From Emcibacter nanhaiensis (GTDB lineage: Bacteria; Pseudomonadota; Alphaproteobacteria; Sphingomonadales; Emcibacteraceae), in assembly GCF_006385175.1 (NCBI RefSeq), contig NZ_VFIY01000019.1, positions 1 through 53,952 of the forward strand: a DNA stretch of 53,952 nucleotides. Reading direction: 5' to 3'. Under the pieces are notes generated by a model, which was not told the DNA's origin, did no database searches, and was given only the letters and a program-made list of their open reading frames with translations. The translations under genes and the position numbers were made by a program. Below, piece by piece: positions 6,954 to 38,922 of this stretch. Numbering within the stretch: the stretch's first letter is position 1; each line of letters opens with the position of its first letter.

Positions 6954-8090
6954 ATGAACCATTCAATCTGGAAACTGTTAACGACTGTCCGGCAAATCCT
7001 CCTTGTCGTTCTGATGGTGGTCTCTGCTGAATCCGTGGCATCCATCGCCTGTGCCGAAGGGACGGTGACGGAAGGGGAGGCGGCTTTCGAAGCCGAGGAT
7101 TATGACCGGGCGCTGGCCATCTTCAAACCGTTGGCGGAGCAGGGGGATGTGGATGCTCAGTTTTATATGGGATATCTCTACGAATTGGGGGAAGGCGTCG
7201 GGCAATCCTACAAAAAGGCTTTTGAGTGGTATTCCCGCGCGGCGGATCAAGGTGATGCCTATACACGATTTCTGGTTGGTGTTTTTTACTACGAGGGCTG
7301 GGGCGTGAAACAGTCCACGAGGGAGGCCGCGAAACATTATGCGGTTGCGGCCGATGCCGGCAATTCTGACGCACAGTTTAATCTGGCTATGTTGTATCGG
7401 TCGGGAGACGGTGTAAAGAAATCTCCGGAAAAAGCTTTTGAATTACTGAAACTAGCTGCAGAACAGGATGACGCCGAGGCTCAGGTCGAGGTGGGATTAG
7501 TGTTCGAAAACGGGGAACTGGTTGAGCAGTCCTATGAAACGGCCGCCTATTGGTATGGCAAGGCGGCGGACCAGGGCGATCCGGGCGGCCAGGCTTACCT
7601 CGCCGAACTTTATGAAAACGGCAAGGGGGGTGAGAAGGATTTGAAACGGGCCTTCAAACTTTATAAAGCCGCCGCCGATCAGGAATATGATTATGCTGCC
7701 AAGAAGCTGGGCAATATGCTTGAAGATTCAAGAAAACCGAAAACAGAGATTTTCCTGATGGCCGCAAATCTTTTTAATTCAGGCGATACAGTCATGGGTG
7801 TCAATATGTGGAAGAAAGTGGCCGAGATGGGCGACAGGGATGCCCAGGTCGTGCTTGGCAAGCTTTATGAAACAGGCCAGGGCGGGCTGGAGCAGTCCTA
7901 CACCAAAGCCCTCTATTGGTATGAACAGTCTGCTCTGCAGGGGCATCCGGGGGCGCAGAATAATCTAGCCGTCCTACATGTTACCGGAAACGGCACGCCG
8001 AAAGACATCGGGAAAGCAAAATTTTGGTTTGAGTGGGCTGCCAGGAACGGTTTGGAACAAGCTAAGCAGTCGGCGGCTAGCTTAAAGTAG
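6954..8090 (+). CDS. Secreted Sel1-repeat protein
   Basis: A 378-residue protein with an N-terminal signal sequence (hydrophobic VRQILLVVLMVVSAESVASI). It has about eight Sel1 repeats with the signature A...GDxxAQxxLGxxYexGxGVxQSxxxAxxWYxxAA, for example DAQFYMGYLYELGEGVGQSY and GAQNNLAVLHVTGNGTPKDI. Unlike the gene at 4525 it lacks the paired cysteines. RBS CGGAGGGGAG precedes the ATG. It probably acts as a periplasmic interaction scaffold and is the last gene of the 4525-8090 run. The 8091-8380 stretch after it holds no recognisable gene. Confidence 0.85.
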   Translation: MNHSIWKLLTTVRQILLVVLMVVSAESVASIACAEGTVTEGEAAFEAEDYDRALAIFKPLAEQGDVDAQFYMGYLYELGEGVGQSYKKAFEWYSRAADQGDAYTRFLVGVFYYEGWGVKQSTREAAKHYAVAADAGNSDAQFNLAMLYRSGDGVKKSPEKAFELLKLAAEQDDAEAQVEVGLVFENGELVEQSYETAAYWYGKAADQGDPGGQAYLAELYENGKGGEKDLKRAFKLYKAAADQEYDYAAKKLGNMLEDSRKPKTEIFLMAANLFNSGDTVMGVNMWKKVAEMGDRDAQVVLGKLYETGQGGLEQSYTKALYWYEQSALQGHPGAQNNLAVLHVTGNGTPKDIGKAKFWFEWAARNGLEQAKQSAASLK

Positions 8091-18826: not shown

Positions 18827-19765
18827 TTAGGGAGAATTTGCAGACTGACTTGTGTCGGTTTTCGGCTGCAAATGATGCAAATAGTCGACGGCTTTTTGCG
18901 CTTCCTTCGCCGCGATAAAAACGGCCTTCTTGTCGTTCCTGAGGGCCATTAGCCAGGACTGAATATAGGCGGCATGATCCAGTCTTGGTTGGGGTGTAAC
19001 AGATAGCCTGCAGCACAGGAAAGCCGCGCCCAATTCGGCGATGAGTTCTTCAAAGGCATATTTCTGATCTCCGAACTTCTCTCCCTTGTCCCGGTTGAGG
19101 CGATGCTCTGCCCCGCTCCAGTGGGTCAACTCATGCAGGATTGTACTGTAATATCCCTCTGTGGCGCTGCTGTATTCCGTTTCTGTGAATAGATCTCGGG
19201 ACGGAATAAAGATCCGATCCAGGGTAGGGGAGTAATAGGCCTTATTACCGCCATGAGAAATATGCGCTTCCGTGCCGGCGATGAATTGTTCTGCCTCGTC
19301 CAGGTCGGAAACCGGGCAGGGTTCGTTTTCTTCATCTGTATCTTTTTCATCTTCCGCCTTGTCCCAGCCTTCTACCTGGTCGGCATTAAAGACGCGACTG
19401 GCCCGGGCAAAATGTCGGGTGACAAGTTCCGTTTCTCCGGGAACGACTTCTCCGTTGATCATTTCGTCTTCTTCTCTTTCGAAGGCCTTGTAAAAAATGA
19501 TAAAGGATGATTTGCTGCCTTTCTTGATTTTGGCGCCCTGTTGTTTCCATTGCTTGAAGGTGCCCCAGCAAGGGGAACTGAAGCCTTTCAGATAGGCTTC
19601 TACCCAAAGGTTGAGAATATTGATCCCCTGGTAATAGTTCCCGGTATGGGCATTCACGGGCAGGGACAGACCGCTGTTCCAGGGCAGACTGCAACTGATG
19701 CTGCCTTGTTCCAGGGCTTCCACAATTCTGTCGGTGACTGTCTGGTGGATATCGATGTTGGTCAT
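18827..19765 (-). CDS. ArdC-like antirestriction/ssDNA-binding zincin protein
   Basis: A 312-residue protein with the ArdC layout. The N-terminal ssDNA-binding domain (about 5-125) includes PWNSGLSLPVNAHTGNYYQG, INILNLW and WGTFKQWKQQGAKIKKGSK. The C-terminal metallopeptidase-like domain has HELTHWSGAEHR (HExxH) and a following FEELIAELGAAFL glutamate helix. ArdC proteins are usually plasmid- or ICE-borne and protect incoming DNA from restriction. I chose the ATG at 19765, which has an AGGAG RBS 8 bp upstream; the frame extends 24 codons further. No conjugation genes accompany it, so it marks past mobility of this region. Confidence 0.88.
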   Translation of the reverse strand: MTNIDIHQTVTDRIVEALEQGSISCSLPWNSGLSLPVNAHTGNYYQGINILNLWVEAYLKGFSSPCWGTFKQWKQQGAKIKKGSKSSFIIFYKAFEREEDEMINGEVVPGETELVTRHFARASRVFNADQVEGWDKAEDEKDTDEENEPCPVSDLDEAEQFIAGTEAHISHGGNKAYYSPTLDRIFIPSRDLFTETEYSSATEGYYSTILHELTHWSGAEHRLNRDKGEKFGDQKYAFEELIAELGAAFLCCRLSVTPQPRLDHAAYIQSWLMALRNDKKAVFIAAKEAQKAVDYLHHLQPKTDTSQSANSP

Positions 19766-20385
19766 GGTCTTCACTCCTGAAAGAACACAATCCCCAATGG
19801 ACTGCGCTTTACCTTTCGAGGGGCGAAGGGGGACCATCGAAGATGGTGGGGAAACAGTCCCGGTGGCTGTTTTCCCATACCCCCGCCGGGTTCAGGAGGA
19901 GATCAAGGGTGTGGTGCGGACAGTGAGCGAAGCGAACAACCCGGTCCCTTGAGGGACGACAGGTTCCGGCATAAGCTCGAAAGACAAGGATAAAGAGAAG
20001 AATAAATTGTCTGCTTTACTTATGTTGTAGAGAATAGTTCTAAGAAGACATTCTTAAACTTAAAGAAGGGGCGGTAAGTGGTGTGCAGAAAGGTGTACTA
20101 TTTCAATTTAACTTACTAGTAAATATGAGTCTGCCAGTGCCTTTTGGTTGCACCAACATCCTTTTTAGGAAATCCAAAATTCCGCCCAGACTTCTGAAAG
20201 TCATAAAATTCCGAGGTTGAACCGTAAAGCATGTTGCAGAATTTGGGGCGTGTTAAGCTTCTTGAGATTATAAGTCCTTTTATTCATGTTTGAATTTTAT
20301 TGGTTTCCAGTGTCTCAGGGTTTGGGATAAAATCCGACCATAGTATTTTGAATTTGACTTCAAGTCTGTCAGGGAAGGTGAAAAG
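19766..20385. other. Long gene-free region upstream of the ArdC-like gene
   Basis: About 620 bp without a convincing gene. It holds a small hairpin (ACCATC-GAA-GATGGT near 19834) and the divergent promoter space between the ArdC-like gene and the XRE-cupin regulator at 20386. An AT-rich stretch spans about 19980-20130. No RNA gene is recognisable. Confidence 0.5.
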
Positions 20386-23842: not shown

Positions 23843-25117
23843 ATGAATAATGCAGAACTCTGGGCGCGCCGGGAACAGGCGGTGGCCCGTGGTGTCGGGA
23901 CCATGCACCAGCGCTTTGCGGCGCGGGCGGAAAATGCCGAACTGTGGGATGTGGAAGGCAAGCGCTATATCGACTTTGCCACCGGCATTGCCGTGAACAA
24001 CACCGGGCACAGTGACCCGCGGATCATTGAAGCGGTGAAGGCGCAGCTCGACAATTTTTCCCACAGCTGTTTCCAGGTTAATCCCTATGAAAGTTACATC
24101 GCGCTGGCGGAAAAGCTCAATGGAGCCGCGCCGGGCGACACGCCCAAGAAATCCATCTTCCTCACCACCGGGGCGGAAGCGGTGGAAAATGCAGTCAAGA
24201 TCGCAAGGGCCGCGACCGGACGCTCCGGCATCATCGCCTTTAAGGGCGGTTTCCACGGCCGCACCATGATGGGCATGGCGCTGACCGGCAAGGTGGCGCC
24301 CTACAAGGTCGGTTTCGGGCCATTCCCGTCCGATATCTATCATGTGCCTTACCCCATTGCCTATCACGGCATCACCGAACAGATGAGCCTGGAGGCGCTG
24401 GACGGCCTGTTCAAGGCAGATATCGATCCCAAGCGGGTGGCGGCGATCATCCTCGAGCCGGTACAGGGAGAGGGTGGCTTTTACGCCGCGAGCCCCGACT
24501 TCATGCAGGCGCTGCGCAAGCTGTGTGACGAGCACGGCATGCTGCTGATCTGTGACGAGATCCAGACCGGTTTTGCCCGGACCGGAAAACTATTCGCCAC
24601 GGAATACAGCAATATCGAGCCGGACCTGATGACAGTGGCCAAGGCCATGGCCGGCGGCTTCCCGATCAGCGGCGTGGTCGGCAAGGCGGACATTATGGAT
24701 GCGGCGGCCCCGGGCGGCCTCGGCGGCACCTATGGCGGCTCACCGCTCGGCTGTGTGGCCGGGCTCAAGGTGATGGAGATCATCGAACAGGATAACCTGT
24801 GCGGGCGCGCCGTTGAAATCGGCGAACTGTTCAAAAGCCGGTTGTTGCGGATGAAAGGCAACGGCACGGGCTCCATCGGCGAGGTGCGTAACCTCGGCGC
24901 CATGATTGCCATGGAGCTGGTGAAGGACGGCGATGCCGACCAACCCGATGCCGAGCTCACTGGCCGGATTGTCCGGGAAGCGGCAGAACAGGGCCTGACG
25001 TTGCTCAGCTGCGGGGTGCGCGGCAATGTGATCCGCTTCCTGCCCGCACTCACCGCCAGCGACGACATTCTCAACGAGGGACTGGATATCCTCGAAGAGG
25101 TGATGGCGATCAGTTAG
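23843..25117 (+). CDS. gabT: 4-aminobutyrate aminotransferase
   Basis: A 424-residue class III PLP aminotransferase. Motifs are FATGIAVNNTGHSDPRI, FLTTGAEAVENAVKIARAAT, LEPVQGEGGFYAASPDF, LICDEIQTGFARTG (PLP Asp) and TVAKAMAGGFPISG (Schiff-base Lys). These are diagnostic of GABA transaminase. It transfers the amino group of GABA (or a similar omega-amino acid) to 2-oxoglutarate, giving succinate semialdehyde for the gabD product. RBS GGAGGG before the ATG, one base after gabD. A textbook terminator ends the unit at 25147-25171. Confidence 0.92.
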   Translation: MNNAELWARREQAVARGVGTMHQRFAARAENAELWDVEGKRYIDFATGIAVNNTGHSDPRIIEAVKAQLDNFSHSCFQVNPYESYIALAEKLNGAAPGDTPKKSIFLTTGAEAVENAVKIARAATGRSGIIAFKGGFHGRTMMGMALTGKVAPYKVGFGPFPSDIYHVPYPIAYHGITEQMSLEALDGLFKADIDPKRVAAIILEPVQGEGGFYAASPDFMQALRKLCDEHGMLLICDEIQTGFARTGKLFATEYSNIEPDLMTVAKAMAGGFPISGVVGKADIMDAAAPGGLGGTYGGSPLGCVAGLKVMEIIEQDNLCGRAVEIGELFKSRLLRMKGNGTGSIGEVRNLGAMIAMELVKDGDADQPDAELTGRIVREAAEQGLTLLSCGVRGNVIRFLPALTASDDILNEGLDILEEVMAIS

Positions 25118-25146
25118 CTCCTCACAACTGATTGCAGACCTGACTG

Positions 25147-25171
25147 GGACCCCTTCGGGGGTCCTTTTTTT
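25147..25171 (+). terminator. Intrinsic terminator after gabT
   Basis: GGACCCC-TTCG-GGGGTCC, a perfect 7-bp stem with a UUCG loop, is followed by seven T. It cleanly separates the gab unit from the guanidine unit. Confidence 0.95.
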
Positions 25172-25383
25172 CTAACTGAAGTAAATTGAATTAGGCAATA
25201 ATAGTTTGTTGGAAGCGCATCAAGATATGGGAGGTTTGCATTCTTATCCATGTAGACATGTTGTTGCTTCGAAGGACTTTCCGTCGATTGTCACCTCTCC
25301 ACGTTGGGACGACTGCTGGAAGGTGCCGGATTTTTTGACAACTATACCAGCATACATAAAAAAGTTTGTATGCTCCTCCGAAA

Positions 25384-25413
25384 CGTGTTACGAAAAATAA
25401 AGAACGTAACACG
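25384..25413. promoter_or_regulatory. Inverted repeat upstream of the NikR-like gene (candidate autoregulatory operator)
   Basis: CGTGTTACG-N12-CGTAACACG is a perfect 9-bp inverted repeat ending 13 bp before the ATG at 25427. NikR binds inverted half-sites whose centres are about two helical turns apart (GTATGA-N16-TCATAC in E. coli). Here the centre-to-centre distance is 21 bp with a different half-site sequence. This fits autoregulation by the adjacent NikR-fold protein. Confidence 0.7.
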
Positions 25414-25426
25414 ATTTGGAGGACGT

Positions 25427-25915
25427 ATGAACGACCAACCACAAGAAAGGCTGGCCCGGCTAGGGGTAAGCCTCCCATCTAGACTGCTGGATGAGCTTGA
25501 TACAATGATCTCGGATCGGGGATTGACCAATCGCTCCCAACTGATTGCGGAGCTGGTGCGCCAAGCGGTAACCAAACATGCGGCGGTGGAGCCGGGGGCC
25601 GTGCTCGCTGGCACGATCACTATGATCTACCAGAACAACAAGGGACATATCCGAAATGCCCTTGCCCAGACCCAACAGTATTTCATTAAGGAAACCATCT
25701 CCTCCCAGCATGTCTTTCTAGAGGAGGACCATTCTCTCGAAGTGCTTCTGGTTCAGGGAACCATCGAAAGGCTCAATGACCTATGTGATCAGATGCGGGC
25801 GATCCGCGGGGTTAACCAGATAAATTTGGTGACCACACGTACCTTGCTGCCGCCCCTTCATGCACATGGGGATGAAGCAGGCGAAATCGAATTTAAAAAG
25901 AAAGAGGTAAAATAG
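25427..25915 (+). CDS. NikR-fold (ribbon-helix-helix + ACT-like) regulator with altered metal site
   Basis: A 162-residue homologue of the nickel regulator NikR. The N-terminal RHH domain (about 8-50) reads RLARLGVSLPSRLLDELDTM and TNRSQLIAELVRQAV. The C-terminal tetramerisation domain (about 60-137) reads GTITMIYQNN, SLEVLLVQGTIERLNDLCD and QINLVTT. Aligned by eye with E. coli NikR, three of the four high-affinity nickel ligands are replaced (H76 by Q84, H89 by F97, C95 by S103) and only H87 (H95) is kept. It is therefore unlikely to sense nickel in the usual way. The ATG at 25427 has a TTGGAGG RBS and follows a perfect inverted repeat. It abuts the first DUF1989 gene (no gap) and probably controls the whole operon. 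Confidence 0.85.
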   Translation: MNDQPQERLARLGVSLPSRLLDELDTMISDRGLTNRSQLIAELVRQAVTKHAAVEPGAVLAGTITMIYQNNKGHIRNALAQTQQYFIKETISSQHVFLEEDHSLEVLLVQGTIERLNDLCDQMRAIRGVNQINLVTTRTLLPPLHAHGDEAGEIEFKKKEVK

Positions 25916-26761
25916 ATGAGCGGGTCAGAAACAGCAGATCCAGCGCTTGCCCGGGAACATGCCCGCCGTCAGGCAGGGACAAAGGTCGAGGCGATGCGGA
26001 CGATCCCGTCCTCTGCAGCAGTAAATCTGCCGGATGGAGTGTCGGCAAAGGATGTTATCTGGGATGAGGTGATTGCCGCCGGTGGTTATGCCATTCACAG
26101 CCTGACACGCGGGGATCGCTTGCAGATTATAGATATCCATGGAGACGGCTGCGTTTCCCTGAATATGTTTAACGCCCAGCATCCTGCGGAACGGTTGAAT
26201 GTGGCCGACAGCATCAAGGTTCAGTGGAAAGCCTATCTCGGGCAGGGGGACCTGATCCTGTCCGGACTGGGCCGGGTGCTGGCCAGTATTCTAAAGGATG
26301 ACGGTTGCGGCATTGATCCCTTCAGCGGGGCGTCAAATCGGCATACTGTTCTGGATCATTATGGCGATAACAGTATCGATCATCCTAATGCGCGCGATCG
26401 TTTTCTGACGGCAGCGGCCAAATGCGGGCTCTCCCGCAAGGATGTACATGCCTGTCTGAATATCTTCAAGCCGGTGCGGATTGCCGAGACGGGCGAGACA
26501 CTGGTGGAGGTGGGACCATTCGTGCCCGGCCGTGTCCTGGAATTGCGTGCGGAAATGAACCTGCTGGTGTTTCTCGCAAACTGTCCGCATGTCCTTGACG
26601 AGCGAAAGGCGTATAGCGTGTCGCCGGTCCGGGCGGTGGCCTGGAAGGGGGAAGAAACAGGATTTGATGATCCGATCCGCAACGCCAGTCCCGAAGCACT
26701 CCGGGCCTTTGAAAATGTCGAAGATTATTTCCACAGCGGTGAGCAGAGGGGAGAAGGATGA
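25916..26761 (+). CDS. DUF1989 protein, urea-amidolyase-associated protein 1 / carboxyguanidine deiminase subunit
   Basis: A 281-residue DUF1989 protein. Family marks are the RGDRLQIIDIHGDGCVSLNM strand pair, NVADSIKVQWKAYLGQGDLI, the HxxxDHYG region, CGLSRKDVHACLNIFKPVRI, and the final LRAEMNLLVFLANCPHVLDE. Proteins long annotated as urea carboxylase-associated (UAAP1/UAAP2) are known to form a heteromeric carboxyguanidine deiminase (CgdAB), which turns carboxyguanidine into allophanate and ammonia. The pair of DUF1989 genes followed by a carboxylase and allophanate hydrolase is the guanidine-pathway order. It overlaps the next gene by 4 bp. Confidence 0.85.
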   Translation: MSGSETADPALAREHARRQAGTKVEAMRTIPSSAAVNLPDGVSAKDVIWDEVIAAGGYAIHSLTRGDRLQIIDIHGDGCVSLNMFNAQHPAERLNVADSIKVQWKAYLGQGDLILSGLGRVLASILKDDGCGIDPFSGASNRHTVLDHYGDNSIDHPNARDRFLTAAAKCGLSRKDVHACLNIFKPVRIAETGETLVEVGPFVPGRVLELRAEMNLLVFLANCPHVLDERKAYSVSPVRAVAWKGEETGFDDPIRNASPEALRAFENVEDYFHSGEQRGEG

Positions 26762-27393
26762 TGTCTGATAAAGCACTCGACATATTGCCAGGGCAGGTCG
26801 TCCATGACGAAACCGTGGCTGCAAAAGCTCCTTGGGCGCATTCTCTTCTGAAGGGGCAGGCCCTGCGTATTGTGGATCTGGAAGGTAACCAGGCAGTCGA
26901 TTTCCTGGCCTATAACCTGCACGATGACAGTGAACGATATAGCGCCCAGGATACAATTGCTGCCCAGCGCAATGTCTACCTGACTACCGGGTCGGTGCTG
27001 CTCTCCAACGAGGGGACGCCGATGATGACCGTCACCGGCGGGTCGGTGGATCGTCACGACACCATTGGCGGGGCCTGTTCCTGTGAATCCAATACCCTGC
27101 GCTATGGCCATCACACCCGGGCGCAACATGCCTGTGTGGAGAATTTTCTGATCGGTAATTCGCCCTTTGGCGGAGACAGCCGCGACTTGGTGCCTAATAT
27201 AAACTGGTTCATGAACGTGCCAGTGGAAGCAGACGGTATGCTGGGTATTGTCGACGGCATTTCCGCGCCCGGCCTTTATGTGGATATCCGCGCTGAAATG
27301 GATATCAGAATCGTGGTGTCCAACTGTCCGCAAATTAACAATCCCTGCAACGGCTTTAACCCCACGCCGGTACGTATGATCATTTCAGGATAG
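26758..27393 (+). CDS. DUF1989 protein, urea-amidolyase-associated protein 2 / carboxyguanidine deiminase subunit
   Basis: A 211-residue second DUF1989 protein, shorter than its neighbour as usual for UAAP2. Key segments are LRIVDLEGNQAVDFLAYNLH, SAQDTIAAQRNVYLTTGSVL, a Cys/His-rich stretch (GGACSCESN, RYGHHTRAQHACVENFL) likely to bind zinc, NINWFMNVPVEADG and SNCPQINNPCNGFNPTPVR. It is the expected partner of the 25916 product in carboxyguanidine deiminase. The ATG overlaps the previous stop, so the subunits are translationally coupled. A second ATG immediately follows the first (26761). Confidence 0.86.
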   Translation: MMSDKALDILPGQVVHDETVAAKAPWAHSLLKGQALRIVDLEGNQAVDFLAYNLHDDSERYSAQDTIAAQRNVYLTTGSVLLSNEGTPMMTVTGGSVDRHDTIGGACSCESNTLRYGHHTRAQHACVENFLIGNSPFGGDSRDLVPNINWFMNVPVEADGMLGIVDGISAPGLYVDIRAEMDIRIVVSNCPQINNPCNGFNPTPVRMIISG

Positions 27394-27407
27394 GGTGGAG
27401 GGCGAGA

Positions 27408-30400
27408 GTGTTTTCCAAAGTATTGATTGCCAATCGCGGCGTTATCGCTTGCCGCATCATCCGGACCCTGAAAAAGATGGGGGTTCAATCAGTTGCCGTC
27501 TACACGGAGGCCGATGCGACCTCTGCCCATGTGCGCTATGCCGACGAAGCGATTTATATCGGCGGGCCGGAGGCGGCTAACGCCTATTTGGACGGAGATA
27601 AAATCATCGAGGCGGCAAAGGCTGGGGGGGCGGAAGCGATCCATCCGGGATATGGTTTCCTGAGTGAGAATGCCGGTTTCGCGGAGGCCTGTGCAGCGGC
27701 GGGTATCGAGTTTATCGGACCGACACCCGATACTATCCGGCTTTTCGGGCGCAAACATACTGCCCGTGAACTTGCCCAGGCGGCGGGTGCCCCGCTTATG
27801 CCGGGCAGCGGTCTGTTGGAAAATGCGGACCAAGCGGCTCAGGAAGCGGAAAACCTCGGCTATCCGGTAATGCTGAAGGCGACGGCCGGCGGAGGCGGGA
27901 TCGGCATGCGTGTTTGCGAAGACCGGGATGACCTGCTGAGCGCCTTCGATACCGTTCAGCGCCAGGGTCAGGGATCTTTCGGGGATGGGGGTGTGTTTCT
28001 AGAACGTTACGTGCGGCACGCCCGCCATGTGGAGGTTCAGATCTTCGGCGACGGAGGGGGGAATGTGGTTGTGCTCGGGGACAGGGATTGTTCCCTTCAG
28101 CGCCGAAACCAGAAAGTGATTGAGGAAACACCCGCGCCAAACCTGCCGACACATATCCGCGACCTTCTCTGGCGAAGCGCCGGGGATATAGCTGCTGCTG
28201 CTTGCTATCGGTCGGCCGGGACCGTTGAGTTCCTGTATGACGTCGACAGAGAGACGGCCTATTTTCTGGAAGTGAATACTCGTTTGCAGGTGGAGCATGC
28301 GGTGACTGAGGAAGTGACCGGGGTTGACCTGGTTGACTGGATGGTGCGCGGTGCCTCGGGTGATTTCAGTGTTATGGAAAAAGACGTTCCGGCCAGAGGC
28401 GCAGCCATTCAGGCCAGGGTCTATGCAGAGGATCCCAGTAACGACTATATGCCCAGTGCTGGTCTTGTCACCGATATTAGCGGACCGAAGTCCACAAGGT
28501 TCGAAACTTATCTTGAGCCCGGAGTGAAGGTCAGTGCACATTATGATCCCATGCTTGGCAAGATTGTTGCATCTGGCCCGGATCGGGCGTCGGCACTTGA
28601 GGCATTGGAAACGGCTCTTACAGAAACGACAATCAGTGGACTGACAACAAACCTGGAATGGTTGAAAGAAGTGGTGTCTTTGTCCGAAGTTGTCGAAGGC
28701 AAAGCAACGACCCGCACGCTGGAAAAAGTCGCCTTTCAGCCGCAGGCAATGCGCATTCTTTCCGGCGGTCCGTCCACGACTGTGCAGGACGCGAAGGGAC
28801 GCCTGGGATACTGGCATGTCGGCGTGCCACCCTCAGGCGCGATGGACTTTCTGTCATTGCGCCTGGCCAACAGACTGTTGGGCAATAGTGAGGACGCCGC
28901 AGGACTTGAGTTTACCGCCATGGGTCCGGCCATCAGGTTTGAGTGTGCCAGCTGGATATGCCTCGGGGGAGCGGATTTTGCGGCCGAACTGAATGGTAAG
29001 CTGATCAGGACCTATCAGGCCATAAAGGTAACTGCCGGGGATGAACTGGTCTGCGGCCGGGTTAATGGCGCCGGTTTGAGAGGATATCTGGCGGTGGCGG
29101 GCGGCATTGCCGTGCCGGAATTTATGGGAAGCCGGGCGACCTTTACACTGGGTGAGTTCGGCGGACATGCCGGGCGGGCGCTTGCGGCGGGGGACTTGCT
29201 CCCCATTAAGGCGTGTGACCGGCTGGAAAAAACTGACGAGTGTCGCTTCACGAACCTTCCTTCTCTCGAGAAGGAATGGATCATTCGAGTGACGCTCGGG
29301 CCACATTCAAGTCCCGATTTTTTCACCGATGAAGATGTGGATATGCTCTTGGCGGCCAACTGGAAGGTACATTTTAACTCCAGCAGGACTGGGGTACGAC
29401 TGGTCGGCCCGAAACCGGACTGGGCGCGTAAGGATGGCGGCGAAGCCGGCCTTCATCCCTCCAATATTCACGACAATGCCTATGCCATCGGTGCGGTGGA
29501 CTTTACGGGGGACATGCCAATCCTGTTGGGTCCCGACGGTCCGTCGCTGGGCGGTTTTGTCTGCCCCTTTGTCACGATCACCGCCGACCTGTGGAAACTG
29601 GGTCAGCTGGCGCCGGGGGACAGGGTGAGTTTCCAGCTTGTGGACGACCGTTCGGCGCGGGAAGCCCTGTTCAGTCAGGAAAATTGTATTTCCAATGGAA
29701 GCGAGACCGTCTGGTCGTCGGTTGCTGTCGCCGCGCAGGATCAGGACGCCATTCTTCATCGGCTGGAAGAAAGCGGGGAACGTCCCGCGGTAACCTATCG
29801 TCGCCAGGGGGATGCCAATCTGCTGGTGGAATATGGTCCCATCGTTCTCGATCTGGAGCTCAGAGCCAGGATCCATGCGCTGATGCTGGCGATTGAAGAG
29901 CGAATTGACGGACTGATCGAGGTCACGCCCGGGGTGCGCTCCCTGCAAATCCATTTTGATCCGCTGACGGTAAATCGGGAAACGCTAATTGACAAACTGG
30001 TCGAGATCGAGGAAACGCTGGGCGATCTCTCGGATTTTGAGGCGACGTCCCGGGTCGTACATTTGCCATTGTCCTGGGAAGATCCGCATGTGCAACAGAC
30101 CATTGATAAATATATGCGGTCGGTCAGGGATGATGCGCCCTGGTGTCCGGATAACATCGAATTCATCCGTCGGGTGAACGGCCTGGAGAGCCGGGAAGAT
30201 GTCTATCGCACGGTTTTTGATGCGGATTATCTGGTGATCGGACTTGGTGATGTCTATCTGGGGGCGCCGCTGGCAACCCCCATGGATCCCCGGCATCGTC
30301 TGGTGACCACAAAATATAATCCCGCCCGGACCTGGACGCCGCCGAATGTGGTGGGCATCGGCGGGGCCTATCTTTGTATTTACGGTATGGAAGGACCCGG

Positions 30401-31013
30401 CGGCTATCAGCTGTTCGGCCGCACCGTGCAGGTCTGGAACTCCTGGAGTGCAACGGGGTCTTTTGAAGCGGGGTGCCCGTGGCTGCTGCGCTTTTTCGAT
30501 CGGATCAAATTCTATGAGGTCAGCGCAGAGGAGCTTGCGGAATGGCGGCGGGAATTTCCCCTCGGCAGGCGCGATGTGAAAATTGAGGAAGATGTCTTCC
30601 GTATGCAGGATTACCGGGCTTTCCTGGAGCGGGAAGCCGGGAGTATTGCGGAATTCCGTACCAGAAGAGAGGCGGCCTTCGCCCGGGAGCGGGATGACTG
30701 GGAAGCCGCGGGCGAATTTTCCAGGGTTGCGGAAATGGAGGAAGCGCTCGAGACGGAAGCTGCCCCGGCGGCCCTGGAGCTGCCGGAGAATGCCATGGCC
30801 ATCGAAACGCCTCTGAGTGGTGTGGTCTGGAAAATCCATGTTGAAGAGGGGGTGCAGGTTACCAAGGGGCATGTTCTAGCCTCGGTGGAAGCTATGAAAA
30901 TGGAACAGGCGATTGCGAGCCCTTGTAACGGCGTGGTTATCGGCATCTATGCAGCAGAAGGCAGTGAAGTTACTCTGGGGTCCACGATCCTGGCAGTAAA
31001 AGAGGAGGATTAG
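27408..31013 (+). CDS. Biotin-dependent urea/guanidine carboxylase
   Basis: A 1201-residue multidomain carboxylase. In order: biotin carboxylase (about 1-450; IANRGVIACRIIRTLKKMG, the glycine loop KATAGGGGIGM, FLEVNTRLQVEHAVTE), an AHS2/KipA-like carboxyltransferase part (about 450-750), an AHS1/KipI-like part (about 780-1020; YNPARTWTPPNVVGIGGAYL, GMEGPGGYQLFGRT), and a C-terminal biotinyl domain with EAMKMEQ (biotinyl Lys K1164). Urea carboxylase makes allophanate from urea. The guanidine-preferring forms make carboxyguanidine for CgdAB. The two DUF1989 genes just upstream and the Gdx exporter nearby favour guanidine, but the active-site residue that separates the two was not identified by eye. 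GTG start with GGTGGAGGG RBS. Confidence 0.92.
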   Translation: MFSKVLIANRGVIACRIIRTLKKMGVQSVAVYTEADATSAHVRYADEAIYIGGPEAANAYLDGDKIIEAAKAGGAEAIHPGYGFLSENAGFAEACAAAGIEFIGPTPDTIRLFGRKHTARELAQAAGAPLMPGSGLLENADQAAQEAENLGYPVMLKATAGGGGIGMRVCEDRDDLLSAFDTVQRQGQGSFGDGGVFLERYVRHARHVEVQIFGDGGGNVVVLGDRDCSLQRRNQKVIEETPAPNLPTHIRDLLWRSAGDIAAAACYRSAGTVEFLYDVDRETAYFLEVNTRLQVEHAVTEEVTGVDLVDWMVRGASGDFSVMEKDVPARGAAIQARVYAEDPSNDYMPSAGLVTDISGPKSTRFETYLEPGVKVSAHYDPMLGKIVASGPDRASALEALETALTETTISGLTTNLEWLKEVVSLSEVVEGKATTRTLEKVAFQPQAMRILSGGPSTTVQDAKGRLGYWHVGVPPSGAMDFLSLRLANRLLGNSEDAAGLEFTAMGPAIRFECASWICLGGADFAAELNGKLIRTYQAIKVTAGDELVCGRVNGAGLRGYLAVAGGIAVPEFMGSRATFTLGEFGGHAGRALAAGDLLPIKACDRLEKTDECRFTNLPSLEKEWIIRVTLGPHSSPDFFTDEDVDMLLAANWKVHFNSSRTGVRLVGPKPDWARKDGGEAGLHPSNIHDNAYAIGAVDFTGDMPILLGPDGPSLGGFVCPFVTITADLWKLGQLAPGDRVSFQLVDDRSAREALFSQENCISNGSETVWSSVAVAAQDQDAILHRLEESGERPAVTYRRQGDANLLVEYGPIVLDLELRARIHALMLAIEERIDGLIEVTPGVRSLQIHFDPLTVNRETLIDKLVEIEETLGDLSDFEATSRVVHLPLSWEDPHVQQTIDKYMRSVRDDAPWCPDNIEFIRRVNGLESREDVYRTVFDADYLVIGLGDVYLGAPLATPMDPRHRLVTTKYNPARTWTPPNVVGIGGAYLCIYGMEGPGGYQLFGRTVQVWNSWSATGSFEAGCPWLLRFFDRIKFYEVSAEELAEWRREFPLGRRDVKIEEDVFRMQDYRAFLEREAGSIAEFRTRREAAFARERDDWEAAGEFSRVAEMEEALETEAAPAALELPENAMAIETPLSGVVWKIHVEEGVQVTKGHVLASVEAMKMEQAIASPCNGVVIGIYAAEGSEVTLGSTILAVKEED

Positions 31014-31018
31014 GCATC

Positions 31019-32794
31019 ATGACAATATTTTCGGTAAACGACATTGCAGAGAGGGTAAGGTCAGGCGGGACAACCGCCGTTGAGATCGCAAGAGACGTTC
31101 TGGAGCGCTGCCGAAAATATGATGCCGTGCAAAAGCAGGTCTGGATCCTGAGGCTGGATGAAGAAAGCCTGTGTGCACAGGCGGCCCGGATTGACAGCCG
31201 GATCAAGGCTGGGGAAGTGCTTCCGCTTGCCGGTGTGCCCTTCGCCGTCAAGGATAATATCGATGTGGCCGGCCTGGAGACCACGGCAGCCTGTCCGGCC
31301 TTCGCTTATACACCGGAAGTCTCGGCCCCGGTTGTAGAACGACTGCAGGAGGCCGGCGCACTGCTGGTGGGCAAGACTAATCTGGACCAGTTTGCAACTG
31401 GCCTGGTGGGTGTGCGTTCGCCTTACGGAGCGGTTCAGAATGCTTTTAATCGGGAATATGTCAGTGGTGGATCAAGCTCTGGCTCGGCAGTGGCAGTGGC
31501 TGCCGGGCTAGTGGCGTTTGCGCTGGGCACCGATACGGCGGGGTCGGGAAGAGTACCTGCGGCATTCAATCACCTGATCGGCCTGAAACCGACAAAAGGG
31601 CGCTGGAGCACCCGTGGGGTGGTACCTGCCTGCCGGTCGCTGGATTGCGTCAGCGTATTTACTAACGATGTGCGGGATGCCGGTCTGGTGGATGACTGCC
31701 TCAACTGGTTTGACGAAAAAGACCCTTTTTCACGACCGGCTGCCGGTTCTCCCGGCACAGGAGCGGAGTTCAGCTTTGGTGTGGCGCGGGATGAACAGTT
31801 GCAGTGGTTTGGTGACCAAGCCTCCCGGCAGGCGTATGAAAAGGCAGTCGGGCATCTGGAGATGCTCGGCGGTAAGAAAGTGACGGTGGATATCTCTCCG
31901 CTCAGTGATTGTGCCGCTATGTTGTATCGTGGGCCCTGGGTAGCGGAACGTGCTGCGGCTGTCGGGGACCTGTTGAAGAATAATCCCGGCGCCATTCACC
32001 CGGCAGTCCGGGGCGCCATGCGTGATGGCCAGGGAGTGAACGGCGTCGATACTTTTAACGCTCTGTACCGTCTAAAGGAATTTGAGCGTATGGCCGGTAA
32101 CATGTGGAAGGGTATGGATATTCTGGTGCTGCCGACAACGCCGACCATCTATCGTATTTCGGAACTGCTTGCCGAACCGGAAGTCCTGAACGCCAATCTG
32201 GGGTTATATACAAACTTTGTAAACCTGCTGGATATGTCGGCGATCGCTCTGCCCAGTGGCCAGCGTGAAAACGGCACGGGCACCGGGATTTCCCTCATCG
32301 GTCCGGCTCATATGGACAGAGGATTGCTGGAAATTGCTGCTCGTTTCGAAACGCAGTTTGGTGACATGACGCGTCCCCCGCTTGATCTTGAATCATCCGG
32401 GGATACTGTGGTTCAACTGGCCGTTTGTGGTGCTCACCTGCATGGAATGCCGCTGAACTGGCAATTGGCTTCCCGACAGGCAAAGCTGGTGTCAAGGACC
32501 CGGACTGCCCCGGTCTATAAAATGTACGCGATGGAGGTCTCACCCCCGAAACCGGCACTGATTCATACCGGCGCGGAGGGCACTTCCATTGAAGTGGAGA
32601 TTTATGAACTTTCCACTGAGGATTTCGGAAGCTTTGTGGAGGAAGTGCCGCCACCGCTTGCGATCGGTAGCGTTGATCTTGAAGGCGGTGATACCGTTAA
32701 AGGCTTTGTTGCGGAACCACGCGCCTGCGATGGCGCCATGGATATCAGCCGGTTCGGGGGTTGGCGGCGTTATATGGCGACGCAGAACGCCTGA
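31019..32794 (+). CDS. atzF: Allophanate hydrolase
   Basis: A 591-residue amidase-signature enzyme with the Ser-cisSer-Lys triad: K78 in AVKDNID, the cis-Ser in SGGSSSGSA (about S153) and nucleophile S176 in GTDTAGSGRVPA. The C-terminal roughly 130 residues (LAVCGAHLHGMPLNWQL to GFVAEPRACDGAMDISRFGG) match the accessory domain of AtzF/DUR1 enzymes. It cleaves allophanate to two ammonia and two CO2, completing the pathway begun by the carboxylase 5 bp upstream. Length is typical. As the last gene of the plus-strand unit, it is convergent with the exporter at 33041. Confidence 0.92.
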   Translation: MTIFSVNDIAERVRSGGTTAVEIARDVLERCRKYDAVQKQVWILRLDEESLCAQAARIDSRIKAGEVLPLAGVPFAVKDNIDVAGLETTAACPAFAYTPEVSAPVVERLQEAGALLVGKTNLDQFATGLVGVRSPYGAVQNAFNREYVSGGSSSGSAVAVAAGLVAFALGTDTAGSGRVPAAFNHLIGLKPTKGRWSTRGVVPACRSLDCVSVFTNDVRDAGLVDDCLNWFDEKDPFSRPAAGSPGTGAEFSFGVARDEQLQWFGDQASRQAYEKAVGHLEMLGGKKVTVDISPLSDCAAMLYRGPWVAERAAAVGDLLKNNPGAIHPAVRGAMRDGQGVNGVDTFNALYRLKEFERMAGNMWKGMDILVLPTTPTIYRISELLAEPEVLNANLGLYTNFVNLLDMSAIALPSGQRENGTGTGISLIGPAHMDRGLLEIAARFETQFGDMTRPPLDLESSGDTVVQLAVCGAHLHGMPLNWQLASRQAKLVSRTRTAPVYKMYAMEVSPPKPALIHTGAEGTSIEVEIYELSTEDFGSFVEEVPPPLAIGSVDLEGGDTVKGFVAEPRACDGAMDISRFGGWRRYMATQNA

Positions 32795-33040
32795 AACCAT
32801 ATCAGAAAATTCCACAGGAATATCTCTTTCACTGTGATTGACCGATACATAGACGAATTATTGGCCAGGCGTGATGTTGACGTTAGGTATGAAACTGTTC
32901 GATAAGTTCGGAGCAGAATATACGTGATGCACCAAGAAGAGGCAGCCTCTCTTTTTGGTGGCTACGGCTGCCTACTCCGGCTTTCTATTTGAAAAGTTTC
33001 TACCCGAGAAATATGTGAAAAATTTTACAGAAACCATTGG

Positions 33041-33361
33041 TCATTGCTTTGCCGTAACTTTCAAGCCCAAGATTCCGATGACAATAAGGCCGAGGCAAAA
33101 TAGCCTTAGCATATCCTTGCTCTCGTTTAGGACAACCATGCCAAAGATCGAGACCCCGACAGCGCCTGTGCCTGTCCAGATGGCATAGGCTGTGCCAATG
33201 GGAATAGTCTGCATCGCCCGCGACAGGAAAAACAGGCTGATGAAAGCTGCAATGATAAAGCCCGCGGTTGGGCCAAAGCGAGTAAAACCATCTGAATATT
33301 TTAAAAGGAGCGCCCAGACGCACTCAAATCCCCCGGCAATTACCAGATAAACCCAAGCCAT
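33041..33361 (-). CDS. gdx: SMR-family transporter, guanidinium exporter (Gdx/SugE) type
   Basis: A 106-residue four-helix small multidrug resistance protein. It starts MAWVYLVIAGGFECVWALLL, carrying the essential E13, and continues KYSDGFTRFGP, the PIGTAYAIWTGTGAVG signature and LIVIGILGLKV. The AW.Y...AG.FE.VWA....S.GFTR pattern belongs to the SugE/Gdx subgroup, which exports guanidinium in exchange for protons, rather than the EmrE drug exporters. Its position about 250 bp beyond the carboxylase/allophanate hydrolase unit supports guanidine as the substrate of that pathway. No guanidine riboswitch was recognised nearby. Confidence 0.88.
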   Translation of the reverse strand: MAWVYLVIAGGFECVWALLLKYSDGFTRFGPTAGFIIAAFISLFFLSRAMQTIPIGTAYAIWTGTGAVGVSIFGMVVLNESKDMLRLFCLGLIVIGILGLKVTAKQ

Positions 33362-33402
33362 TTGTATTTCTCCGTTCAGGCGCTCTCTAAATTGCGCAAC
33401 TG

Positions 33403-34197
33403 TTAGCTAAATTTTGGTGTTTCCTTAGCGAGAAACGCCCGCACAGCTTCTTTGTGATCAGCAGTAGTGAAGGTGATGGTCTCAAGCGCCAGGGAGGCCG
33501 GGACCAACTGGGTACCGAGCTGCTTTAGCATGAGATTTACTGATTTTTTGGTCAGCTCGATTGCCATGCGCGGTCCCGTAGCTAGCCTTTTGGCAAAGGT
33601 CATCGCTGTTTCTTCCAGTGCATCGGCATCCACACAATGGTTCACCAGACCGATGTTGGCTGCTTGCTCGGCGTTGATTGGGTCACCAGTCATCAGGAAT
33701 TCCTTGGCACGATTTGGCCCGATCAGGAGAGGCCACAGCAATGCGCCGCCATCTCCGGCGACAATGCCGACGTTCACATGTGGATCGGAAATGACGGCTT
33801 TTGCGCTCATGAAGGAGACATCGGCGAGCAGGGCGATGGTTGCTCCGAGGCCTACGGCATGGCCGTTGATCATGGCGATAACTGGTTGGCGAATTTCTAG
33901 AAGAGAATTCACAATTGCAGCGCCGTCCCGCACCATTTCCGCCAAGTCCTCAGCGGTGTTGATGTCGTCGCGCATCCATTTCAGATCGCCACCGGCGCAG
34001 AAAGCACGACCTTCCGGGTCGCCGGTGATAACTACAACTCGGACGGAATCATCTAGACTGATTTTTTGAAACACACGAGCCAGTTCATGGTGCAGAACCG
34101 CGTCGATGCAGTTTTTGCCGGCCGGGTTGCTTATTGCAATAGTAAGAATGCCTTCTTTAATATCAATGTTCAGCTTGGTGTATTCATCATATGTCAT
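33403..34197 (-). CDS. Enoyl-CoA hydratase/isomerase-family protein lacking classical glutamates
   Basis: A 264-residue crotonase-fold protein. CoA/oxyanion-hole segments are AFCAGGDLKWM and INGHAVGLGATIALLADVSF. The two catalytic glutamates of mitochondrial-type hydratases are not in their usual places: the first falls in GLGATIALLAD, the second in ISDPHVNVGIVAGDGGALLW, where PE is PH. An Asp in AGDGG is present, as in a divergent crotonase subgroup. It may be a hydrolase, isomerase or lyase rather than a hydratase. Its stop overlaps the upstream SRPBCC gene start by 4 bp (ATGA). It is the last gene of the minus-strand unit from 36130. Confidence 0.85.
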   Translation of the reverse strand: MTYDEYTKLNIDIKEGILTIAISNPAGKNCIDAVLHHELARVFQKISLDDSVRVVVITGDPEGRAFCAGGDLKWMRDDINTAEDLAEMVRDGAAIVNSLLEIRQPVIAMINGHAVGLGATIALLADVSFMSAKAVISDPHVNVGIVAGDGGALLWPLLIGPNRAKEFLMTGDPINAEQAANIGLVNHCVDADALEETAMTFAKRLATGPRMAIELTKKSVNLMLKQLGTQLVPASLALETITFTTADHKEAVRAFLAKETPKFS

Positions 34198-36130: not shown

Positions 36131-36613
36131 TCGTCAATACTAATGCCAGATCAGAACTTTCTGTATATATCTGTTCAAATTATTAAATCAGGAATACTGA
36201 TGTTTTACATTCAACGTGTATAGAGGCATATTCTGAAAGGAGTACAAGTAGCAGTTTTGGATGTTCTGTATCACGAAACGAGCAGGAGGCTGCCGGGTGT
36301 GCTTTGCCAAGGCTGTTTAGCCCGGGGAGCCCGTTGTCGAGTGACTCTCTGGTTTTCTGCTCGTTTGTCTGGAGGCAGGAAGAACATAGCATGATACTAA
36401 CCTATCTCCTGTTGGTGTAGTTGATGGAGCGCGGCGTGGGTTGCTTATAGACGAGGACCGAATCAGGGGATGAGATTACTTCATCAAATTATTTGATGTT
36501 TATATATGCAAACTGATGTTTTGCCTGCCGTAATACAGCGCGATGCTTTTGCCATATTTGTCATCTGTTTTGGTTCAGGTGCGGAAAATGACACTCAAAG
36601 GGAGAACGACATC
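36131..36613. promoter_or_regulatory. Divergent control region between the two arms of the catabolic locus
   Basis: About 480 bp between the GNAT-like gene (minus) and the TonB receptor (plus). A minus-strand frame at 36183-36392 is not convincing. The region holds a perfect 7-bp inverted repeat at 36482-36498 and AT-rich promoter-like DNA, and is the obvious place for the LysR or AraC regulators of the locus to act. Confidence 0.45.
36482..36498. promoter_or_regulatory. Inverted repeat upstream of the TonB receptor gene
   Basis: CATCAAA-TTA-TTTGATG, 7-bp perfect arms with an AT-rich centre, lies 115 bp before the GTG at 36614. Size and symmetry fit a dimeric-regulator operator. The cognate protein is unknown. 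Confidence 0.4.
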
Positions 36614-38920
36614 GTGAAAAGGTTTAATAGTAAAAGTGAGTTACTTGGCACTATCAGCAAGATTGCTCTGCTTACCGGGCTCTCTGCTTCCCTCGGGACG
36701 ATGGCTGCGGCGGCACAAGATGCAGAGGATGAAGTTATAAGAATTGATGAGGTGGTCGTTACGGCGTCACGAAGAGCGCAGTCTCTTGAGGAAGTGCCGT
36801 ACAATATTTCTGCGGCTACCGGAGAGGCGCTCAAGGGCCGGAATGTTGTTGATTTTGCGAAACTGACCCGAACCTTTGCCGGACTCCAAATGACTGATCG
36901 CGGCGTGCGCGACAACACCGCGTCCGCAAGGCTGATTTCGCGGGGGCTGAATACAGAGTCGGCAGCTTTTTCCGATTTGCCCTTCGTTACTGCCTCACCG
37001 GTTGCAACTTATGTCGGCGAAACGCCGGTTTTTGCCAACCTCCGAATGAATGATATCGACCGCGTCGAATTCTTGCGGGGTCCGCAAGGTACTCTTTACG
37101 GGTCCGGGTCTCTTGGCGGCACCTTGCGCTTTATCCACAATAATCCTGACTCGAGTGAATTTTATGGCCGCGTTGAGGGGAGCACAGGCTTCAGCAAAGA
37201 TGCCGGTGATCCGAACTATTCTGTAAGTGGCGTGCTGAACGTGCCGCTTTCTGAAAACACCGCGGTTCGGGTTAGCGGGGGCCATGACTATTACGCCGGC
37301 TATATTGACGGCCTGACCAAGGCGGTTCTGGATGCCGATGACATTGCCGAACCGGCTGATCCGGATAATCCATTTGACAGTGCACCGCTGACAAAATCCA
37401 AAAAAGATATAAACGAAGCAAAAGTAACATATGCGCACGCCGCCCTTCGCGTTGAACTTGGCGAAAACTGGACTATTCAGGTAAACTCACACTACCAGAA
37501 GGAAAAAGGCGCTAACCGGGATGCCCAGTCGGTTATGCCGGGCGAGCCCGAGCGGACCAACCTGGTTTTGCTTGATGAGCCATCCGAGCGGGAATTGAAG
37601 CTGATCGGGCTGGATGTGGAAGCTGACTTCGGTTTTGCAACGATGACCTCGTCAAGTTCTTACACGGATGTGGATAGTTCAGCTATAACTGATGGCACCG
37701 GCGCCTACGGTTCCATAGGCTATTTGTTCTTCCCGAGGGTGACAGTCCCGCTTGAGCTCTATACAAGCAGCAAAACCTTTGTCCAGGAAGTTCGTCTGGT
37801 GTCGAATTCAGATGGGCCCCTGAGCTGGCTGATTGGCGGATTCTACATGGATCAAGATAATCTGGACCTTGATGAATTTGACTACTTCCGTGGTGACAGC
37901 CTTATCGGGTTCCCAATTTCAAACGCAGACGAATTGTTTTTGAACCTGCATCGTGAGTCAAATTTTGAGGATCTGGCTGCTTTTGGTGAACTGAGATACG
38001 ATTTCTCTGAACAGTGGCAGGTGACGGTTGGTGCTCGGGTATTTAACCAGAAATTCTCCAGCGAAGCCTTTTTTGACTTTCCGGCCTTCGGTCTCTATCC
38101 AGGTTCTCCGAACTCCTTCGAGGAAGACGGAGTATTGTTCAAGGTCAATACTTCCTATCAATGGTCGGATGCAGCCAACGTCTACGCGACCTTTTCGCAA
38201 GGCTTCCGTCGCGGAGGCGCGAACTCCATTCCCACTTCGGGGCCGCTGGCTGAGCCGGCTGAACTTGTTAGCTATTCATCTGATTCAGTCGATAACTACG
38301 AGATTGGCGTCAAGGGCGTGTTTGAAAACAATGTCCGATACAGTCTTGCGCTCTATTATATCGACTGGAAAGATGCCCAGATTGGCACCTTGTCGCCTGT
38401 ATTTGGGTACGACGTCGGTGTGAATGGCGGTGACGCGGAAAGCAAGGGGCTGGAAGCGGAGATTTCCGGTCCGATTGGCGAAAATTTCAATTTCTCCATA
38501 GGATATTCCTATACAGATTCCAGCCTCAAGGACGGGTTTGACGGCTTTGTTTCCGGTCAGGCGGGTGCCCGCCTGCCAGGTGTCTCCAAGCACTCATTGT
38601 CCGCCGCACTCGATTATGTCCTGCCATTATCGAATGCTGCAGACCTGGTTTTCCATGTGGACGGGTCGTATCGTTCCGATTTTGTCAACAATGTGGATCG
38701 GACGCTGGATATATATCGTGAGTTTGATGGCTTCGCAATTTTTGCTGCCTCGGTGTCCTATCAGACAGACACTTGGCATGTAACATTGGCAGCAGAAAAC
38801 CTCTTCGACGAGAAAGCGATATCAGCACAGAATGATCCGGGCTATGCAACGCCGGACTATGTGGTGGAATGGGGCACTCGTCCGCGGACGGTTACGCTGA
38901 GTTTTGCCAGCGAGTTTTAG
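36614..38920 (+). CDS. TonB-dependent outer-membrane receptor
   Basis: A 768-residue outer-membrane receptor. I chose the GTG at 36614 because a typical signal peptide follows (KIALLTGLSASLGTMAAAAQ) and GGGAG-like sequence precedes it; the frame is open 36 codons further upstream. The TonB box region reads IDEVVVTASRRAQSLEEVPY. The plug domain (about 60-190) includes VEFLRGPQGTLYGSGSLGGT. The beta-barrel (about 200-768) ends with the required aromatic residue (TVTLSFASEF). It resembles the receptors for organic substrates common in marine and sphingomonad-like Alphaproteobacteria rather than a siderophore receptor, but the ligand is unassigned. It heads the plus-strand catabolic run, with the next gene 2 bp downstream. 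Confidence 0.92.
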   Translation: MKRFNSKSELLGTISKIALLTGLSASLGTMAAAAQDAEDEVIRIDEVVVTASRRAQSLEEVPYNISAATGEALKGRNVVDFAKLTRTFAGLQMTDRGVRDNTASARLISRGLNTESAAFSDLPFVTASPVATYVGETPVFANLRMNDIDRVEFLRGPQGTLYGSGSLGGTLRFIHNNPDSSEFYGRVEGSTGFSKDAGDPNYSVSGVLNVPLSENTAVRVSGGHDYYAGYIDGLTKAVLDADDIAEPADPDNPFDSAPLTKSKKDINEAKVTYAHAALRVELGENWTIQVNSHYQKEKGANRDAQSVMPGEPERTNLVLLDEPSERELKLIGLDVEADFGFATMTSSSSYTDVDSSAITDGTGAYGSIGYLFFPRVTVPLELYTSSKTFVQEVRLVSNSDGPLSWLIGGFYMDQDNLDLDEFDYFRGDSLIGFPISNADELFLNLHRESNFEDLAAFGELRYDFSEQWQVTVGARVFNQKFSSEAFFDFPAFGLYPGSPNSFEEDGVLFKVNTSYQWSDAANVYATFSQGFRRGGANSIPTSGPLAEPAELVSYSSDSVDNYEIGVKGVFENNVRYSLALYYIDWKDAQIGTLSPVFGYDVGVNGGDAESKGLEAEISGPIGENFNFSIGYSYTDSSLKDGFDGFVSGQAGARLPGVSKHSLSAALDYVLPLSNAADLVFHVDGSYRSDFVNNVDRTLDIYREFDGFAIFAASVSYQTDTWHVTLAAENLFDEKAISAQNDPGYATPDYVVEWGTRPRTVTLSFASEF

Positions 38921-38922
38921 GC

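Follow-up and report, generated by a model that had tools for sequence, protein, structure and literature searches.

Closest described systems

Guanidine-carboxylase operons under riboswitch control are known from P. syringae, V. boliviensis, rhizobia and Pantoea. The loci discussed here share their enzymes and an ABC importer with these systems. They centre on a five-gene operon in a stretch of 53,952 nucleotides from Emcibacter nanhaiensis (contig NZ_VFIY01000019.1, hereafter the window), the first gene of which encodes a putative regulator of the NikR fold. In the riboswitch-run operons, the control elements precede both the importer and either UAAP1 or the carboxylase; in the close relatives of the window regulator (group I, defined below), a candidate protein operator is found at these places. 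A guanidine riboswitch in front is usual, though not universal, in the described operons, whereas none exceeded the Rfam cut-off in the window and 22 group I loci. To our knowledge, the switching of guanidine-use genes has so far been known for RNA switches only. Literature searches, limited to open-licence papers and hence no proof of absence, found no NikR-like guanidine regulator.

The NikR proteins of E. coli, H. pylori and P. horikoshii are the best solved relatives of the window regulator and share with it an RHH and a NikR_C domain as well as the operator type. For E. coli NikR, an excerpt of PMC7055735 gives the nickel-ligand roles of the residues and the binding site GTATGA-N16-TCATAC. 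The site GTGTTAC-[N13/14]-GTAACAC is predicted for NikR of delta-proteobacteria in an excerpt of PMC545781. The window regulator differs from these proteins in the lack of the His3Cys site, in a Q at the equivalent of E30, in its putative guanidine-gene targets and in scoring below the NCBIfam NikR-type cut-offs. Its clade is further set apart by a C-terminal P[PQ] motif and, in group I, by C120, H51 and H145. The NikR fold and the NikR-type operator are known; the novelty lies in the sensor, with a putative new signal and a new regulon.

A guanidine operon behind a NikR-fold regulator

The first-pass annotation of the window, made from the sequence alone, proposed a guanidine-assimilation operon under a NikR-fold protein turned guanidine regulator. 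The operon and its nickel-site-less regulator are well supported by the ligand loss (0 of 109 clade proteins keep the full site), the operator, the Asp signature of the carboxylase and the absence of a riboswitch over cut-off from the window-type loci scanned; guanidine is a putative signal. We consider it fairly probable that the regulator is a dedicated local repressor of guanidine assimilation, with guanidine or a close pathway compound as the inducer, a reading drawn from sequence comparison. The features of the operon are as follows.

25384..25413, no strand: candidate operator, inverted repeat CGTGTTACG-N12-CGTAACACG, core GTGTTAC-N14-GTAACAC (from the sequence)
25418..25422, + strand: likely Shine-Dalgarno sequence GGAGG, immediately 3' of the operator (from the sequence)
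25427..25915, + strand: NikR-fold regulator, 162 amino acids, ATG at 25427 (profile, alignment, AlphaFold2/Foldseek)
25916..26761, + strand: UAAP1 (DUF1989), presumably a carboxyguanidine deiminase subunit (TIGR03425, 240.5 bits against a cut-off of 205.95; PF09347)
26758..27393, + strand: UAAP2 (DUF1989), presumably a carboxyguanidine deiminase subunit (TIGR03424, 325.9 bits against a cut-off of 284.7)
27408..31013, + strand: urea/guanidine carboxylase (TIGR02712, 1737 bits, above cut-off; alignment to 5i8i)
31019..32794, + strand: allophanate hydrolase (TIGR02713, 743.6 bits against a cut-off of 511.05)

The gene order proposed earlier (NikR-like, DUF1989, DUF1989, carboxylase, allophanate hydrolase) holds as a five-gene operon, with all four enzyme models above their curated cut-offs. 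The genes are tightly packed: the stop codon of the regulator ends at 25915 and UAAP1 begins at 25916, and UAAP1 and UAAP2 overlap. We take UAAP1 and UAAP2 to be the two subunits CgdA and CgdB. According to PMC11410670 (in excerpt), CgdA and CgdB, which make up carboxyguanidine deiminase, belong to DUF1989 (PF09347). The genome of the window contains a second complete operon with a regulator copy that is 91% identical. This second full copy (L016, G000:C8:70000-88000; regulator at 11410-11895) has its own operator and is flanked by a MalT/LuxR-type regulator and a TonB receptor on one side and by an MFS transporter and, by eye, a LysR-like gene on the other.

Clade members and their association with guanidine genes

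The regulator clade comprises 109 proteins. Group I (n=97) contains close relatives of the window regulator from Sphingomonadales and Caulobacterales, group II (n=10) contains proteins from other members of the window's class and from a second class, probably Gammaproteobacteria, and group III consists of two Acinetobacter proteins. The total includes contig-end and second-copy members without guanidine genes in view, and the group II loci L116 and L117, whose cluster is partly seen. Members are known from culturable Caulobacter, Novosphingobium and Sphingobium. For comparison, 23 other NikR relatives were taken from the same searches, with L121, L123, L127 and L131 (of the 15 lower-scoring loci L118-L132) dropped for want of a tblastn hit.

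Across 196 genomes of the order Sphingomonadales, 12 have the regulator, and UAAP1 is found in precisely these 12. The regulator gene lies immediately 5' of UAAP1 in 13 of 13 operons of the order, the window counted, and in 72 of 80 group I loci, the best 80 of 286 relatives; the other eight are contig ends or second copies. Counts from these 80 loci are not independent, as they include overlapping pieces (L159/L185, L156/L186, L158/L217) and at least five loci (L160, L183, L191, L198, L227) that match genomes already used. A search of the second class (219 genomes) gave matches to the regulator in 30. The seven best matches (E <=2.3e-43) all adjoin genes of a guanidine-type ABC importer, and five of them also adjoin UAAP1, UAAP2, carboxylase and hydrolase. 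None of the guanidine enzymes and no importer binding protein was found at 12 lower-scoring loci of this class, which are 12 of 27 such matches. Of the loci L029-L047 from the class search, L043 (the G475 locus) alone entered the analysis.

According to an excerpt of PMC11410670, Asp at K. lactis position 1330, together with Asp at 1584, distinguishes guanidine carboxylases from those acting on urea. K. lactis position 1330 is Asn, and the window carboxylase has D698 at 1330 and D948 at 1584. By this signature the carboxylase of the window operon is of the guanidine type. Asp is present at 1330 in 70 and at 1584 in 69 of the 80 group I loci, the remaining 10 and 11 being uncovered; all 14 additional group I loci and all seven group II/III loci tested have both residues. 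The guanidine-type Asp is also present in the carboxylases of eight control clusters without the regulator. These controls contain the guanidine genes found at the regulator loci, were hand-picked for spread from 60 listed of 237 records and comprise three rhizobial clusters, one from Thioclava, two from Burkholderiaceae, one from Pantoea (without the hydrolase) and one from Enterococcus.

Loss of the nickel site

Both domains of the regulator score above their cut-offs: PF01402 (RHH_1) with an E-value of 1.7e-4 and PF08753 (NikR_C) with 1.1e-19. The AlphaFold2 model has a mean predicted local distance difference test score of 76.5, with most of the C-terminal domain above 90, and its best structural matches in Foldseek are NikR structures. 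The C-terminal domain is predicted to fold in the order beta-alpha-beta-beta-alpha-beta. All five NCBIfam NikR-type models that matched the regulator did so below their cut-offs (95, 91.7, 68.7, 66.8 and 64.9 bits vs 105, 111, 175.45, 83 and 119). Annotated plasmid copies of the regulator carry names such as 'CopG family ribbon-helix-helix protein'.

The replacement of three of the four nickel ligands, as claimed in the first-pass annotation, was borne out by a phmmer alignment, in which H76, H87, H89 and C95 of E. coli NikR (1q5v) correspond to Q84, H95, F97 and S103. Only the H87 equivalent is kept. All four ligands are intact in 0/97 group I, 0/10 group II and 0/2 group III proteins, compared with 22/23 of the other NikR relatives. 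In group I, at most one ligand is retained in 95 of 97 proteins, usually H95 (93/97), and four Caulobacter proteins retain none. The second, low-affinity metal site is changed as well: E30 is replaced by Q in 95/97 group I, 8/10 group II and 2/2 group III proteins, while E is found in 22/23 other relatives. The replacing residues in group I are nearly fixed, with F at 97 in 91/97, S at 103 in 93/97, Q at 94 in 96/96 and E at 99 in 96/96; position 84, equivalent to H76, is variable and mostly occupied by small residues. The conservation of the replacements at 94, 97, 99 and 103 in group I argues for a new function and against decay. That the classical nickel site has been lost throughout the clade is well supported by these alignments.

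The clade is coherent in further respects. A C-terminal motif [LIM]P[PQ][LIVF] is present in 109/109 clade proteins and in 0/23 other NikR relatives; it was first drawn as [LIM]P[PQ][LIF] (107/109 vs 0/23), and V was added after the two misses were seen. In a tree of 55 rows, which sampled 21 of the 97 group I proteins and left out N_L118 because of its very long branch, the clade members form one side of a branch with a support of 100/100 under midpoint rooting only. An earlier tree of 111 rows, prior to group III, gave the same split. Two group II proteins score above some curated NikR cut-offs. Sequence comparison thus shows relatedness to NikR with the two-domain architecture and the operator type and spacing kept, and the nickel site lost.

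Two observations stand apart. H46 is present in 84/97 group I proteins, although the window regulator has Q at this position. A separate degenerate NikR-like protein of Novosphingobium (L132, G178:C32, match 11741-12130) has one nickel ligand left, H76, and no guanidine genes were found nearby.

A dedicated candidate operator

The perfect 9-bp inverted repeat with NikR-like geometry, reported earlier upstream of the regulator, is present at 25384-25413, closely followed by GGAGG and by the start codon ATG at 25427. The derived pattern DTRTTAC-N14-GTAAYAH occurs exactly twice in the 3.96-Mb genome of the window, once before each operon copy. A search for the site at orthologous clusters, suggested in the first-pass annotation, recovered sites of the GTATTAC-N14-GTAATAA type just ahead of the regulator, ahead of the ABC importer or at both places. 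In L021, L022 and L025, only the importer was found to be preceded by a site. The relatives in this comparison are about 51-64% identical to the window regulator. By comparison, these candidate sites precede the regulator's own operon and, in relatives, the guanidine-type importer.

The 17 regulator-bearing genomes contain 27 exact sites, in 15 genomes, and 26 of these lie no more than about 11 kb from the regulator. As controls, the reversed pattern gave three sites and a spacer lengthened by two bases gave none. The pattern was derived from these loci, so its presence there is partly by construction, whereas its rarity elsewhere is not. Over the 1.43 Mb of the 80 group I loci, there are 127 occurrences of TRTTAC-Nn-GTAAYA at n=14 and none at n=6-13 or 15-25; the count of 127 is inflated by related species and some overlapping loci. 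A single spacing with freely varying spacers is consistent with a protein assembly of fixed geometry on the DNA. If one mismatch is allowed, 78/80 loci have a site, and in 67 a site is assigned to the regulator gene. The corresponding figure is 10/12 loci for groups II and III and 0/8 for the regulator-less clusters. On these sequence patterns, the candidate operator is real and dedicated to guanidine loci. L116 contains GTATGA-N16-TCATAC, which is identical to the E. coli NikR site.

In many sphingomonad loci, a conserved stretch (TGGACAA ... GGCAATGCTGCA) was noticed by eye after the importer operator, for example in L183 at about 7164-7230; it may be a promoter or another site for a regulator.

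Riboswitches possibly replaced or stacked

The absence of a guanidine riboswitch from the window was confirmed by an Rfam covariance search, which gave no match at curated cut-offs. At E <=10, two matches were obtained over 25000-33500, namely a microRNA family at the repeat (20.1 vs 80 bits) and a snoRNA family, and neither came near its cut-off. Likewise, no guanidine riboswitch exceeded its cut-off in a chosen subset of 22 group I loci. Guanidine-I exceeded the cut-off in 0/196 genomes of the order, the other guanidine riboswitch classes being searched at the loci only. Three weak guanidine-I matches in one genus of the window's family (L228-L230; 45, 37.4 and 33.7 bits vs a gathering score of 63) are all in genomes without the regulator. 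Among the eight regulator-less clusters, seven have guanidine-I and six of these seven also guanidine-II, while the Enterococcus locus has neither above cut-off.

At both Acinetobacter loci, guanidine-I lies before UAAP1, with the operator just upstream. In L232, an exact operator (2842-2869) precedes a guanidine-I riboswitch (2904-2999), and the operator of L231 has two mismatches. That operator and riboswitch share one operon is an independent link between the clade and guanidine genes. Guanidine-II is present in L043 and, barely above cut-off (32.6 and 34.1 vs 32), in L265 and L267.

Proposed mechanism and alternative explanations

In the absence of the inducer, the apo tetramer would bind GTRTTAC-N14-GTAAYAC in the promoter or leader and block transcription. 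Guanidinium or a close pathway compound would then occupy the tetramer interface at the former nickel position. The pocket would be a rebuilt one, with mostly small residues at the H76 position, Q94, F97, E99 and S103 newly conserved, and H95 and E105 carried over. Ligand binding would free the DNA, so that the substrate would induce its import and breakdown. This would invert the logic of NikR, in which nickel is a co-repressor, as the ligand would here be an inducer. In Sphingomonadales and Caulobacterales, the protein would take the place of the guanidine-I and guanidine-II riboswitches of other Proteobacteria. Repression, the direction of the response and the identity of the ligand are what we infer from the sequence. 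By a narrow balance, we favour the wider proposal that this former NikR clade represents the first known guanidine-responsive protein transcription factors, with the nickel pocket rebuilt for guanidinium. Riboswitches would have been replaced wholly in Sphingomonadales and Caulobacterales, and the protein would act in series with them in Acinetobacter and some other lineages.

Several observations weigh against the proposal of a guanidine-responsive repressor. A guanidine riboswitch is present at 5/12 group II/III loci, the other seven having none, and at loci that already have one the protein may read a second signal. Two of the 17 regulator-bearing genomes have no exact site, and 2/12 group II/III loci have none even with one mismatch. 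Across the order, a site occurs somewhere in 12/12 regulator genomes but an exact match also in 25/184 others, so the pattern alone is not diagnostic. A simple scan of 25100-25500 found no sigma-70-type promoter. Relatives in other lineages retain up to three of the four nickel ligands; the old site is better preserved in group II, where 2/10 proteins have all three His, with Thr for Cys. Newly conserved residues are found as well: C120 in 97/97 group I proteins (0/10 group II, 0/2 group III, 0/23 other NikR relatives), H51 in 91/97 (7/10 group II, 0/23 others) and H145 in 82/97 (10/10 group II, 3/23 others). Their conservation makes a relocated metal or redox site possible. His/Cys ligands kept at other positions had been named beforehand as a finding that would speak against the proposal, and this applies by half, through the conserved C120, H51 and H145.

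It is unlikely, in our view, that the protein, while acting locally on the guanidine genes, senses nitrogen status, for example through glutamine bound in the C-terminal domain. The predicted strand and helix order of this domain is ACT-like, and ACT-like domains bind amino acids elsewhere. Several group II clusters contain a type III glutamine synthetase (TIGR03105 above cut-off in L115, similar genes in the others), and the riboswitches of some relatives leave room for a second signal. However, the 22 group I loci scanned have no guanidine riboswitch and no such glutamine synthetase was found at 94 group I loci, so nothing else was found there to sense guanidine; hardly any site, moreover, lies outside the guanidine locus. 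It is rather improbable that carboxyguanidine or allophanate, as intermediates of the pathway, or a substituted guanidine, for example methylguanidine, is the signal in place of guanidine. An Acinetobacter cluster holds a gene annotated as 2OG-Fe(II) oxygenase, a type of enzyme that demethylates methylguanidine in Vreelandella (PMC12508155, in excerpt), and 7/94 group I loci have oxygenase-like genes, in four cases at a second copy of the regulator. This oxygenase family is large, and a similarity of E 1e-5 says little about the substrate; the adjoining hypothetical gene was matched at 0/94 group I loci. As a matter of general chemistry, carboxyguanidine is expected to be short-lived.

A response to nickel or another metal has a low probability, whether as a nickel-sparing switch, with metal-replete cells repressing a nickel-free route, or through a relocated site. 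The relatedness to NikR and the NikR-type operator would suit it, as would the control of a nickel-independent hydrogenase by NikR predicted in D. desulfuricans (PMC545781, in excerpt), the widely retained H95, the three His of two group II proteins and the new C120, H51 and H145. It is opposed by the complete His3Cys set in 0/109 proteins, by the single or missing ligand of most group I proteins, including the four Caulobacter proteins without any, and by the altered low-affinity site; C120 is not found in groups II and III. Finally, the inverted repeat, which is near the ribosome-binding site and capable of a 9-bp stem, could be an RNA hairpin, or it could be the site of an unrelated factor, with the NikR-like protein as a bystander. 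This is very improbable, given half-sites at one spacing (127 vs 0) with freely varying spacers, the occurrence of the site ahead of the ABC importer and apart from the regulator gene, and its absence from 8/8 regulator-less clusters. A dedicated repressor responding to guanidine or a close pathway compound is the reading we prefer.

Neighbouring genes

33041..33361, - strand: SMR exporter, SugE/Gdx-like, convergent with the operon (PF00893; SugE model best, 116.9 bits, below the cut-off of 126)

The Gdx-type exporter noted earlier behind the operon exists as an SMR gene downstream, but on the opposite strand and convergent, with a SugE score below cut-off. Among the window and 94 group I loci, an SMR gene was found nearby in the window alone, which makes it a neighbour rather than a conserved part of the operon. 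In Acinetobacter, genes for an SMR exporter, the 2OG-Fe(II) oxygenase and a hypothetical protein lie at L231:13323-15549, a set that bears some resemblance to the methylguanidine demethylation pair of Vreelandella.

A TonB receptor and a TPR-sulfotransferase are located about 4 kb beyond the window operon (36506-40548), without an operator. Sphingomonad guanidine clusters (L020:744-3302, L020:14851-17346) contain a TonB receptor, a fatty-acid-hydroxylase-like gene and a TPR-sulfotransferase, with operator-like sites near some. At 18827-19837, the window encodes an ArdC-type anti-restriction protein (ArdcN and MPTase-PolyVal), a hint of mobile DNA.

Implications

Clade members that lack an intact nickel site yet score above NikR cut-offs, such as the two group II proteins, would be annotated as nickel regulators, which is a warning for the family. 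Bacteria use guanidine as a nitrogen source, and RNA is known to switch the genes involved; the clade described here provides a concrete candidate for a protein switch. If the proposal is true, a metal sensor can change its ligand and yet keep its DNA site, and protein and RNA switches can replace or stack on one another.

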